NCBI RefSeq assembly: GCF_000377625.1
Contig: NZ_KB898325.1
Span: forward strand, 1 to 64,000
Source: Prevotella veroralis DSM 19559 = JCM 6290
Lineage (GTDB): Bacteria; Bacteroidota; Bacteroidia; Bacteroidales; Bacteroidaceae
Direction of reading: 5' to 3'
Length of the DNA stretch: 64,000 nucleotides
Shown: piece by piece, positions 21,152-25,857 of the stretch
Layout: every line of letters begins with the position of its first letter
Numbering within the stretch: position 1 is the first letter of the stretch
Program-made: the position numbers and the translations under genes
Notes under the pieces: model-generated
What the model was told of the DNA's origin: nothing
The model's database searches: none
What the model saw: the letters and a program-made list of their open reading frames with translations, nothing else

Positions 21152-22516
21152 ATGCACGGACATACAGACAACTACACTTTCTTGACACAAGGACCAATAC
21201 ATCGTGTCATACTAACGATGGCTGTACCCACAATTATATCTATGCTTGTGACCGGACTGTACAACATTGCAGACACATTCTTCGTTGGTAAGATCGATAC
21301 ACAAGCCACTGCAGCTGTCGGAGTGTCGTTTTCTATGATGTTCTTTGTGCAGGCGATGGGGTTCTTCTTTGGGCATGGTTCGGGCAACTACATATCTCGT
21401 GAGTTAGGAGCAAAGCGTCATGGCAATGCTATAAAGATGGCATCAACAGGCTTCTTTAGCTCTTTCTTCTTTGGACTAGTTATCCTTGTTCTGGGTGAGA
21501 TATTCCTTACTCCACTCTCATTAATGCTGGGTAGTACGCCAACTATCCTCCCTTATACAGAGGAGTACATGCGGATAATCCTCTTGGGAGCACCTTTCTT
21601 GACCTCATCCCTTACGCTGAACAATCAGATGCGATTGCAAGGTAATGCGAATTTCGCTATGTATGGCATTGTAACAGGTGCTATCTTGAATGTTGCCTTA
21701 GACCCTTTACTTATCTTTACATGTGGTATGGGGGTTAGTGGAGCAGCCCTAGCGACTGTGATAGGACAGTTCGTTTCGTTCGTAATCCTATTCTTTATGA
21801 CTCGAAGAGGGGAGAATATAGCTATTCACTTTCGACACTTTTCACCCTCATGGGCGGCTTATAAGGAGATATTCTACGGTGGTAGTCCATCATTAATGCG
21901 TCAAGGTCTGGCGTGCGTAGCCACTATGTCCCTCAATCTGGCAGCTGGTGTCTATGGTGATTCGGCTATTGCTGCGATGAGCATAGTCGGTAGAATCGCC
22001 ATGTTATCATTTGCTGCTGTGATTGGATTAGGGCAAGGCTTCCAGCCAGTTTGTGGCTTCTGCTATGGGGCGGGACTTTATACTCGATTGAAGAAAGCCT
22101 ATAATTTCACCGTAGCCCTTGGTACTGGCTTCCTCATTCTACTTGCTATTGGAGGCTGGATAGTGAGTGATTCCCTTATAGGAGTGTTCCGTGACGATCC
22201 TAAAGTAATTGAGATTGGAGTGGTTGCATTGCGTTGGCAGCTCTGTACCTTCCCTCTCAATGCCTTTATCTTAGCAAGTAATATGATGGCACAAACTTGC
22301 CGTAAGCCTTTACGAGCTAATATTCTTGCTGCTGCAAGACAAGGTTTATTCTTTATCCCACTCATCTTTATCCTTCCAGCTCACCTTGGTTTGCTAGGCG
22401 TTGAGATGTGTCAAGCGGTCAGTGATGTGTTCTCTTTTATGTTATCAGTGCCTATCGTTGTTTATACTTTCAAGGAGTTTAATAAGGAAGCAGTGGTTAG
22501 GAGGGTCGCAGAATGA
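21152..22516 (+). CDS. MATE family multidrug efflux transporter
   Basis: Membrane transporter of 454 residues with about 12 hydrophobic segments in two repeats. The beginning (LTQGPIHRVILTMAVPTIISM, then YNIADTFFVGKI) and the GLGQGFQPVCGFCYGA motif in the second half are typical of MATE proteins of the MepA type. These export drugs and other compounds using a Na+ or H+ gradient. Its last four bases overlap the start of the HMA-AraC regulator, so the two genes are co-translated and the regulator may control this transporter as well as the copper genes. Confidence 0.92.
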   Translation: MHGHTDNYTFLTQGPIHRVILTMAVPTIISMLVTGLYNIADTFFVGKIDTQATAAVGVSFSMMFFVQAMGFFFGHGSGNYISRELGAKRHGNAIKMASTGFFSSFFFGLVILVLGEIFLTPLSLMLGSTPTILPYTEEYMRIILLGAPFLTSSLTLNNQMRLQGNANFAMYGIVTGAILNVALDPLLIFTCGMGVSGAALATVIGQFVSFVILFFMTRRGENIAIHFRHFSPSWAAYKEIFYGGSPSLMRQGLACVATMSLNLAAGVYGDSAIAAMSIVGRIAMLSFAAVIGLGQGFQPVCGFCYGAGLYTRLKKAYNFTVALGTGFLILLAIGGWIVSDSLIGVFRDDPKVIEIGVVALRWQLCTFPLNAFILASNMMAQTCRKPLRANILAAARQGLFFIPLIFILPAHLGLLGVEMCQAVSDVFSFMLSVPIVVYTFKEFNKEAVVRRVAE

Positions 22517-23076
22517 GTAAGATTTATATAAAGAACATGGTTTGTGATCGTTGTAAGATGGCTGTTGAGCAGACCTTACAACGTCAGAATATACATCCTA
22601 TAAAGGTTGATTTGGGCGAAGCTATTGTCGAGGAAGAATTGACGGAAGCACAACTCTTAGCACTTCGAGCAGCTTTAAAAGATTTAGGTTTTGAACTTCT
22701 CGGAGATAGAAGACAGCAGACAATAGACCTTATAAAGTCCTCTTTGATAAAACTTGTACATTATCAAGATAACCAGTCAGCAACAACTCTAAGTGATTAT
22801 CTCGTCTCTCAACTCCATCAAGACTATAGTTCGCTTTCCAAACTCTTCTCGGAAGTAGAAGGAAAGACCATCGAACGCTATTATATAGAGCTTCGTATCG
22901 AGCGTGTGAAAGAGCTAATTCGTTATGACGAACTTACTCTTACACAAATAGCGCAGCGTATGAATTATTCTTCGGTAGCCTATCTCTCCAGTCAGTTTAA
23001 GGCTGTTACGGGAATGACTCCATCTCAATTCCGAGGGATGAAGACGAATACTCGTAAGCCTTTAGACCAGCTCTAA
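22513..23076 (+). CDS. AraC-type regulator with N-terminal heavy-metal-associated (HMA) domain
   Basis: Protein of 187 residues. Residues 1-70 form an HMA-like fold with the metal motif MVCDRC (Cys11, Cys14), as in copper chaperones. Residues about 95-180 are an AraC-type DNA-binding domain: two helix-turn-helix units, the second with LTQIAQRMNYSSVAYLSSQF and GMTPSQFRGM. The obvious reading is a one-component metal sensor, in which Cu(I) or another soft metal binds the HMA part and changes DNA binding. The copper chaperone and P1B ATPase genes lie directly downstream behind their own promoter. It overlaps the MATE gene by four bases. Confidence 0.85.
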   Translation: MSKIYIKNMVCDRCKMAVEQTLQRQNIHPIKVDLGEAIVEEELTEAQLLALRAALKDLGFELLGDRRQQTIDLIKSSLIKLVHYQDNQSATTLSDYLVSQLHQDYSSLSKLFSEVEGKTIERYYIELRIERVKELIRYDELTLTQIAQRMNYSSVAYLSSQFKAVTGMTPSQFRGMKTNTRKPLDQL

Positions 23077-23348: not shown

Positions 23349-23561
23349 ATGAAAAGTGATATTTTTGCAGTAAGTGGTATGAAGTGTGTACATTGTAAGG
23401 CTAACGTTGAGAATGCGCTAAAGTCTTTAAATGGTGTAAAGAGTGCAGAAGCTAATATAGAGAAAGCCAATGTAAATGTCGAATATGATGAGTCTGTTGT
23501 TACTCCAGCACAACTCAAGGAGGCAGTAGACAATAGCGGGCGCTATGAGTTGAGCCTATAA
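23349..23561 (+). CDS. Heavy-metal-associated domain protein, CopZ-like copper chaperone
   Basis: Seventy residues forming a single HMA domain with the metal motif GMKCVHC (Cys13, Cys16). Proteins of this kind carry Cu(I) in the cytosol and hand it to the ATPase. The ATPase gene begins 10 bases downstream and has its own N-terminal HMA domain, an obvious docking partner. The histidine between the cysteines (CVHC) is common in bacterial CopZ proteins. Confidence 0.9.
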   Translation: MKSDIFAVSGMKCVHCKANVENALKSLNGVKSAEANIEKANVNVEYDESVVTPAQLKEAVDNSGRYELSL

Positions 23562-23571
23562 GGAGATAAGC

Positions 23572-25491
23572 ATGAAGCAAACAATTCCTGTTATCGGCAT
23601 GGCATGTTCTGCATGTTCTGCTAATGTCGAGAAGAAACTGAACGAGCTTAAAGGCATTAATACCGCATCGGTATCATTGCCTGGTCGTTCCGCTTTGGTC
23701 GATTATGACCCCGAAACCATCTCACTGGAGCAGATGAAAGCTGCAATCAATGGGATTGGTTATGACTTAGTCATTGATAAAGAGACTTCAGTTGAGGAGA
23801 TTGAGAAGCGCGAATACACGTTATTACGTCGGAAAACCATCCTTTCTTGGATATTCTCCATTGCCGTAATGAGCGTTTCAATGGGATGGATCGACCTCCA
23901 TTCACGCACCATTGCCAATCAAGTTTCTCTATTGATTGCCTTGGCAAACATTGTTTATTGCGGTCGACAGTTCTATGTTTCAGCATGGAAACAACTACTT
24001 CATGGCACTGCAAACATGGATACCCTCGTAACCTTATCCACGGCAATATCATTCCTATTCAGTACTTTCAATACCTTCTGGGGGGATGCTGTATGGGCGA
24101 GCCGAGGTATCGTTTGGCATACATACTATGATGCGGCTGTAATGATCATTACCTTTGTCTTGACAGGACGAATGTTAGAAGAAAAGGCAAAGGACGGCAC
24201 TGCCTCCTCTATTAGGCACATGATGGGTATGGCTCCAAAGACGGCACATATTGTTGATGGTGACCGAATAGAAGAAGTGCCAATATCGACTATTGAAGTA
24301 GGAGATATTCTAGAGGTTCACCCTGGCGAGAAGGTTCCTGTCGATGGAGAAGTTATCTCTGCTGAGAGCTTTATGACCCCCGATGCCGCCTATGTTGATG
24401 AGAGTATGATCACAGGTGAGCCTACTCCTGCCGAGAAGAATAAGGGTTCAAAGGTGTTAGCAGGCACTATTCCTAGTCAAGGAGTATTCCGCATGAAGGC
24501 AAATGAGATAGGTGAGAACACGGCATTAGCGCATATTATTCGGATGGTGCAAGAGGCACAAGGCTCTAAAGCACCCGTGCAACGCATTATCGATAAGGCT
24601 GCTTTAGTGTTTGTTCCAGTCGTTACGCTCATTGCCTTGCTAACCTTTCTTCTATGGTGGCTGATAGGTGGCGAGGCTTACTTACCACAAGCGATTATCT
24701 CTGCCGTAGCCGTTTTGGTCATCGCTTGCCCATGTGCCATGGGATTGGCGACACCGACTGCCTTGATGGTAGGAATTGGTAAGGCAGCACAAAAGCAGAT
24801 ACTCATCAAGGATGCAGCAGCATTGGAGAGCTTACGTAAGGTGGATGCACTTGTAACCGATAAGACGGGAACGTTGACGATACCTAATAAGGAGGTAGAC
24901 TTCACCAAGGCTGACAATCTTCCTTTCGAGAAGCGGGAACAACTGAAGCCCAATGCTCGTGAGGCGATGGAGGAATTGCAGAAGAGTGGGATAGAGGTCT
25001 ATATGATGAGTGGTGACAAGGATGAGGCTGCACACTATTGGGCCGATAAAGTGGGTATAAAGCACTACTTTAGTAAGGCTTTACCGCAGGACAAAGAGAA
25101 CCTTGTTAAGCGTTTGCAGTCTAAAGGAAAACGCGTTGCGATGGTAGGAGATGGCATTAATGATACCCAAGCGTTAGCGTTAGCAGATGTCAGTATAGCG
25201 ATTGCCAGGGGTACTGATGTTGCAATGGATGTGGCACAAGTGACGCTCATGGGCGATGATTTAGCTACCCTTCCAGAGGCAATCCGACTAAGTAAGAACA
25301 CCGTTAGAATGATATGGGAGAATCTTTTCTGGGCGTTCATCTATAACCTTGTTTGTATTCCTTTGGCAGCTGGGCTATTATATGTCTTCGGTATTAACTG
25401 TCAGATTACACCTTCTTGGGCAAGTGCCCTAATGGCATTCTCAAGCGTTAGTGTCGTTTTGAACAGCCTTCGCCTGCGTTGGATGAAATAG
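23572..25491 (+). CDS. copA: P1B-type copper ATPase lacking the nucleotide-binding domain
   Basis: Protein of 639 residues. In order: HMA domain with MACSAC (Cys12, Cys15), two leading membrane helices, actuator domain with TGEP (about 281), metal site CPC (about 386-388), phosphorylation site DKTGTLT (Asp about 430), GDGIND (about 527), and two final helices. All eight membrane segments of a CopA are present. Only about 97 residues separate DKTGT from GDGIND, whereas family members usually have about 200 with an HP motif for ATP binding. Here DKTGTLTIPNKEVDF runs within about 30 residues into the P-domain helix LKPNAREAMEELQ. The N-domain seems cleanly missing, in frame. Whether it still pumps copper is open. 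Confidence 0.85.
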   Translation: MKQTIPVIGMACSACSANVEKKLNELKGINTASVSLPGRSALVDYDPETISLEQMKAAINGIGYDLVIDKETSVEEIEKREYTLLRRKTILSWIFSIAVMSVSMGWIDLHSRTIANQVSLLIALANIVYCGRQFYVSAWKQLLHGTANMDTLVTLSTAISFLFSTFNTFWGDAVWASRGIVWHTYYDAAVMIITFVLTGRMLEEKAKDGTASSIRHMMGMAPKTAHIVDGDRIEEVPISTIEVGDILEVHPGEKVPVDGEVISAESFMTPDAAYVDESMITGEPTPAEKNKGSKVLAGTIPSQGVFRMKANEIGENTALAHIIRMVQEAQGSKAPVQRIIDKAALVFVPVVTLIALLTFLLWWLIGGEAYLPQAIISAVAVLVIACPCAMGLATPTALMVGIGKAAQKQILIKDAAALESLRKVDALVTDKTGTLTIPNKEVDFTKADNLPFEKREQLKPNAREAMEELQKSGIEVYMMSGDKDEAAHYWADKVGIKHYFSKALPQDKENLVKRLQSKGKRVAMVGDGINDTQALALADVSIAIARGTDVAMDVAQVTLMGDDLATLPEAIRLSKNTVRMIWENLFWAFIYNLVCIPLAAGLLYVFGINCQITPSWASALMAFSSVSVVLNSLRLRWMK

Positions 25492-25725
25492 GTGAGTAAG
25501 AATAGAAAGAAGGGTGTGATACTTTTGTAATAGATTATTGCTAATTTGGATGCTTCTCATTGCGTTATTTTCGATAAAGTATGATGTTGTGTCCAAATAC
25601 GCGATTCATAGCAAAGGTATTGTGCCTTTCTTTAATTTGTTGATAACCAGTTTGTTATGAAAAACATACCTATTAATTACTTAAAATATTCTAGACTTTC
25701 CATTGAAAAATACTAGTTTTTGGGT

Positions 25726-25857
25726 AAAAACGTACCTCCGTTTCGCCAAAAACGTACCTCTATTTCACTAAAAACGTACCTCCGTTTCACTAAAAACGTA
25801 CCTCAGTTTCACCAAAAACGTACCTCCGTTTTACTAAAAACGTACCTCCGTTTTATG
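25726..25857 (+). repeat. Tandem array C, six 22-bp units
   Basis: Six adjacent 22-base units, each starting AAAAACGTACCTC and ending in a variable GTTTCACT-like part; a seventh, decayed unit follows to about 25879. Contiguous, without spacers. Confidence 0.9.

Follow-up and report, generated by a model that had tools for sequence, protein, structure and literature searches.

The closest described relatives of the gene analyzed here are the canonical P1B-1 copper pumps of the CopA type, represented by structures of LpCopA (3rfu/4bbj) and AfCopA (7r0g and the fragment 3a1c), with actuator (A), phosphorylation (P), membrane (M) and nucleotide-binding (N) domains. The N domain is regarded as a core part of P-type ATPases. 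According to PMC9433437, a P1B pump is expected to be built of A, P and N domains. In PMC4215238, an H+,K+-ATPase whose N-domain ATP site is blocked by fluorescein isothiocyanate is reported still to hydrolyze the small phosphate donors acetyl phosphate and p-nitrophenyl phosphate with no nucleotide bound to its N domain, and PMC7961605 reports that acetyl phosphate drives Ca2+ transport by SERCA. We analyzed a 64,000-nucleotide stretch of Prevotella veroralis DSM 19559 = JCM 6290 (contig NZ_KB898325.1, positions 1 to 64,000; hereafter, the window), in which a single open frame (23572..25491, + strand, as are all genes and motifs below) encodes a compact CopA-like P1B-1 pump of 639 aa without an N domain. 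In the H+,K+-ATPase the N domain is present but chemically blocked (PMC4215238), whereas in the window pump it is gone from the gene.

By analogy with these systems, we tentatively propose that the gene encodes a predicted Cu+-export pump of the CopA type whose N domain has been deleted and whose Asp430 would receive phosphate from a small donor, most likely acetyl phosphate; we hold this proposal as a whole with somewhat less than even confidence.

Domains and motifs of the compact pump

The identification of the gene draws on Pfam, TIGR01511, motif reading and a structural model. The protein begins with a heavy-metal-binding (HMA) domain (residues 4–65, GMACSAC, with GMxCxxC at 9–15; 23581..23766; PF00403, E 4e-14), and motif reading and alignment placed the remaining CopA signatures in their expected order: the actuator-domain dephosphorylation motif ITGEP (residues 280–284; 24409..24423), the membrane Cu+-binding motif CPC (386–388; 24727..24735), DKTGT (430–434; 24859..24873), in which Asp430 is the residue phosphorylated in P-type pumps, LPQDK with the phosphate-site Lys508 (504–508; 25081..25095), the Mg2+/phosphate site GDGIND (526–531; 25147..25164), and the two further membrane Cu+-site motifs YNLVCIP (YN, residues 591–592; 25342..25362) and MAFSS (MxxSS, residues 621–625; 25432..25446). 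An earlier note on this DNA, made from the letters alone, had reported the TGE, CPC, DKTGT and GDGIND motifs, and our reading bears it out. At the point where canonical CopA carries its N domain, sequence comparison found only a short linker, TIPNKEVDFTKADNLPFEKREQLKP (residues 436–460; 24877..24951), and HAD motif II reads MMSGD (478–482; 25003..25017), with Ser in place of the usual Thr.

We measured the size of the gap as the number of residues from the start of DKTGT to the start of GDGIND (GDGxND). This spacing is 96 in the window pump, which has no His-Pro (HP) motif. In all 59 P1B relatives that carry an N domain, most of them CopA-like and one of them the 632-aa pump of the same genome, it is 181–220 and HP is present. 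The earlier note had put the gap at about 97 residues, about half of the usual; the shortness stands, and the exact value is one lower. Across 109 relatives without an N domain (hereafter, compact rows; one is a near-duplicate) spacing ranged from 83 to 115 and HP was absent throughout, as the note had said for the window pump. Pfam recognized HMA, E1-E2_ATPase and a partial Hydrolase domain, matched only from position 95 of its 191-position profile, compared with positions 1–191 in an N-domain-bearing relative, and TIGR01511 (copper-translocating P-type ATPase) scored 508 bits, split into two stretches. In an AlphaFold2 model (mean predicted local distance difference test, pLDDT, 73) we read helices compatible with the eight membrane segments previously claimed, and the AfCopA P+N fragment 3a1c aligns with the model over 156 of its 267 residues at 2.3 Å; Foldseek gave 36% identity to LpCopA 4bbj. 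Because sequence, Pfam and the alignment of the model to CopA structures all support a CopA that lacks this part, as first suggested in the note, we conclude that the part missing from the window pump is the N domain.

Compared with canonical CopA, with which it shares the A, P and M domains, CPC/YN/MxxSS, (T/S)GE, DKTGT and GDGxND, the window pump is without about 100 residues (the N domain including HP) and has Ser for Thr in motif II and Glu456 for Asp. All three domains required of a P-type fold (A, P and M) were found. We class the protein as an N-less variant derived from CopA rather than as a canonical P1B ATPase, because it has CopA-like membrane and phosphorylation parts but lacks one defining feature, the N domain.

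Conservation, distribution and origins of the N-less form

A protein search returned 8000 matches among 8000 candidates scored, and the 120 listed were all 639 aa long and 99–100% identical to the window pump. A scan of contigs found 120 places encoding a relative, and we retained the 80 best as loci; their record titles named Prevotella, Segatella, Hallella, Hoylesella, Leyella, Marseilla, or Prevotellaceae, Bacteroidaceae or Bacteroidales. None of the 80 loci encodes an N domain or HP (77 have spacing 96, and the values 83, 89 and 109 occur once each), while [TS]GE, CPC, GDGxND, YN, MxxSS and the SGD of motif II were found in every one. In a 60-row alignment of the window pump and 59 of these loci, the catalytic residues for phosphorylation and dephosphorylation (among them Gly282, Glu283 and Lys508), CPC, YN and MxxSS were invariant; the pattern used for the Lys motif missed 4 of the 80 loci, yet the Lys itself did not vary across the alignment. 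In 14 selected pairwise comparisons with the window gene, the ratio of nonsynonymous to synonymous differences (pN/pS) was 0.10–0.24 for the whole gene, 0.12–0.30 for the linker and 0.10–0.22 for the P domain after the linker (residues 459–575), with synonymous sites mostly saturated. The compact pump gene is under purifying selection. A sequencing artefact, which the earlier note had named as a possible refutation, or a recent deletion is ruled out by the near-identical 639-aa proteins, the 80 N-less loci and the same-genus genomes described below. In one genome (G017; L017 and L025) the compact copA is divided between two overlapping frames (541 and 166 aa), which reflects either an assembly error or a broken copy, and in another (G102; L171) the match was reported with one internal TAG codon.

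Eleven P-domain changes were nearly fixed in the compact rows, that is, present in at least 90% of the 109 compact rows against at most 10% of the 59 N-domain-bearing rows: P438 (for G), N439, D443, F444, T445, E456 (for D), A462, M479, S480 (for T), Y489 and W490. Residue 456 is Glu in 109 of 109 compact rows and Asp in 59 of 59 N-domain-bearing rows; we take this Asp to correspond to the hinge Asp of P-type pumps. Motif II has Ser in all 109 compact rows versus Thr in 55 of the 59 others. Ser and Thr are interchangeable in HAD motif II. This Ser, a second independent loss and the possibility of a donor other than ATP are points beyond those raised in the earlier note.

The family survey covered 298 genomes, with the best 4 candidates per genome scored, and 190 had a match at E <= 1e-70. 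Among the 47 same-genus genomes having a match (the window genome counted), 46 carry the compact form and 44 have a single unbroken full-length match; G281 (L165) is compact with spacing 115, and G183 is compact with spacing 96 and an insertion near residue 230. Together with the 80 loci, these counts answer the search for homologues with the same deletion that the earlier note had called for, and indicate a stable form. The exception in the genus is G283 (L220/L222), which lacks the compact form and instead encodes an 879-aa CopA with an N domain, either through horizontal replacement or as a retained ancestor. Among the matches listed for other genera of the family, compact forms appeared in G040, G062, G061, G084 and G102 (spacing 96) and in G159; the remaining matches listed either break at about residue 437 or continue into an N domain, in frames of at least 734 aa, except for G269, whose frame is cut by TGA but shows the start of an N domain (SEHP). 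N-domain-bearing CopAs of three genera of the family (codes g19, g22 and g27; g19 may be Bacteroides) stand among the closest canonical neighbours in the tree described below; their best matches to the window pump mostly reach 50–55% identity across about the first 437 residues, but they keep the N domain (spacing 198–199 in L166–L169 and L172) and TGD. The compact form occupies the place where relatives have canonical CopA.

At the level of the phylum, with the P-domain piece as query, 230 of 392 genomes had a match, and among the matches listed only G000 and G043 cover the piece from its first residue. Besides the compact ones, the four shortest frames among those listed (G513, 503 aa; G554, 598; G591, 633; G360, 701) were considered as further compact forms and rejected, all having spacing 190–199 and HP; three of them are truncated where a contig or locus ends. 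The N domain is retained in most other genera sampled, which rules out a compact form throughout Bacteroidota and disposes of the earlier note's other possible refutation, that all Bacteroidales CopA are compact. The window genome itself encodes three P-type ATPases: the compact pump, the 632-aa P1B pump with an N domain (SSHP), and a 944-aa pump.

Phylogenetic reconstruction shows a second, independent loss of the N domain in another genus of the family (code g29), of which 58 genomes were searched, 16 had a match and 2 of these were N-less. The two N-less proteins, L164 (G159) and L199 (G759), have no N domain (spacing 91, no HP) and bear an additional C-terminal HMA domain. In a 66-row tree built from the 632 columns with at least 70% occupancy, a filter that excluded the N domain, the 30 Prevotella-type rows grouped in a single clade (support 100) next to CopAs with an N domain from several family genera, and L164 and L199 nested among CopAs with both an N domain and a C-terminal HMA (support 97), so that their C-terminal HMA is also present in their N-domain-bearing neighbours. 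A careful reconstruction from a subset of 34 rows gave the same placement (99/94), and a common origin of both N-less groups was rejected by the approximately unbiased test (p 2.3e-5 and 7.2e-4 for the 66-row and 34-row trees); L199 is a long branch and its exact position is less sure. To judge from their sequences, the two N-less lineages adapted differently, because L164 and L199 retain G438 and D456, unlike the compact pump, and of the eleven compact-clade changes only Ser480 is seen, in one of the two. The L164-type lineage looks rare, as the 120 database relatives listed for L164 comprised one 706-aa cluster at 99% and otherwise longer proteins (817–1065 aa) at about 50%.

Candidate phosphate donors and alternative explanations

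Because the whole phosphorylation site is kept under selection, we argue that the protein quite probably still works as a phosphoenzyme pump despite lacking an N domain. In the cycle we envisage, CopZ would pass Cu+ to the compact pump; Asp430 would take phosphate directly from a small donor able to act without an N domain, aided by Lys508, Ser480 and Mg2+ held by GDGIND; and the TGE loop would then strip the phosphate while Cu+ leaves. Acetyl phosphate is the first candidate because a P-type pump with a blocked N-domain ATP site still hydrolyzes it, and since SERCA uses it as well, an N-less pump run on acetyl phosphate seems chemically reasonable. We put the chance that acetyl phosphate or some other small molecule, not ATP, serves as the main donor slightly below even. 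The wider idea, of a P-type metal pump that abandoned ATP, having lost its N domain at least twice, and that runs on a non-nucleotide donor such as acetyl phosphate, so that copper export is tied to the fermentation state of the cell, is more speculative still. A widespread, selected N-less form with a second origin would show which parts of a P-type ATPase are truly needed, would offer a clean test of whether such a pump can do without nucleotide binding and, if it can, which donor it uses, and would imply that a plain CopA annotation hides how Prevotella-type bacteria export copper.

The main alternative is that ATP is still the donor and that the P domain alone (Asp430, Ser480, Lys508, GDGIND, perhaps with Y489/W490 and the linker) binds Mg-ATP weakly, but well enough at millimolar cellular ATP. 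The P-domain residues for phosphate and Mg2+ are retained, several of the eleven nearly fixed changes lie beside the old hinge, and linker residues P438, N439, D443, F444 and T445 are each at least 90% conserved in the 60-row alignment. However, linkers in a Prevotella subclade (L165, L101, L104, L105 and L015; spacing 83–115, including 83, 89, 109 and 115) are degenerate or of low complexity, Gly-rich or with ESGERKV repeats, which weakens the very reduced ATP site that the earlier note had offered as one option; L104 is also without the Y489/W490 pair, and the second N-less lineage, with only Ser480 in one of its two members, gives no sign of a common replacement site. We regard this alternative as unlikely, though worth serious consideration. 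The note's other option, ATP binding through another protein, corresponds to an N domain or nucleotide-binding partner working in trans, and we give it little credit. Such a partner is formally possible, and a very divergent domain could slip past our profile, which was built from 29 N domains and is of P1B type, so that the N domain of the 944-aa pump goes unreported. Yet the profile found no stand-alone P1B-type N domain in the window genome, where it did find that of the 632-aa pump (E 4e-23), and none of the eight commonest neighbour families of the 80 loci, judged by length and start, is N-domain-like, the commonest beyond the HMA proteins and the pump occurring in only 36 loci. The one other profile match (E 0.12, C18:5433) we attribute to chance; by our reading, its 391-aa frame resembles a tyrosine-type integrase.

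Two further explanations are comparably improbable in our judgement. Cap-less (C0) HAD phosphatases often have large substrates, and without the cap-like N domain the active site should become more accessible, so a phosphoprotein might serve as donor; no phosphocarrier-like neighbour is widely shared, however, among the same eight families. Alternatively, pumping may have been lost, so that the gene is decaying or its product serves as a Cu+ chaperone, a sensor or a passive route. One would not expect a standard P-type pump to work without its N domain, and the two-frame gene of G017 and the TAG reported in G102 fit decay, but the catalytic residues for both half-reactions are invariant, the low pN/pS speaks for selection, and the compact pump stands in the place of the relatives' canonical CopA.

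Several observations weigh against the small-donor proposal. Compact-clade changes near the former hinge (P438, E456, S480, Y489 and W490) could mark a new nucleotide site, and the P domain might bind ATP weakly. Acetate kinase is encoded in the window genome but also in 9 of 14 control genomes, and is thus permissive only and does not single out acetyl phosphate. At least 20 same-genus genomes had no match in the family survey, and in a separate same-genus search 11 of 24 had none, 7 of these being less than 90% complete; either the gene is absent from such genomes or the searches overlooked it, and the pump would not be essential to the group. The copy split between frames in G017 counts here too, and the structural models are of moderate confidence only (pLDDT 73 and 71). 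A literature search from which subscription papers were mostly absent found, among the papers listed, no activity report for an N-less pump and no description of an N-domain-less P-type ATPase, which for that reason is weak evidence of absence. CopA presence has been scored in endodontic bacteria including Prevotella, in a study whose main text never uses the word 'domain' (PMC13207848), and PMC12687438 threw no light on the donor.

Gene neighborhood

A CopZ-like copper chaperone of 70 aa is encoded 10 bp upstream of the pump gene (23349..23561; PF00403, E 7e-18), and a separate CopZ-like copy lies upstream of the compact copA in 53 of the 80 loci. Further upstream, a fusion protein joins a CxxC HMA domain to an AraC-type helix-turn-helix (22513..23076; PF12833, E 3e-17; PF00403, E 3e-4, below Pfam's cut-off), and its composition suggests that it is likely the copper-responsive sensor-regulator of the cluster. 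The eight commonest neighbour families of the 80 loci include HMA proteins and the pump as one family (80), an unknown protein (36) and the HMA-AraC protein (26). A MATE efflux gene (21152–22516) overlaps the HMA-AraC gene by 4 bases at its end; a MATE homologue occurs near the compact copA in only 13 of the 80 loci. Directly downstream of the pump gene lies a 22-bp tandem repeat (25725–25853; 5.9 copies, 88% match).
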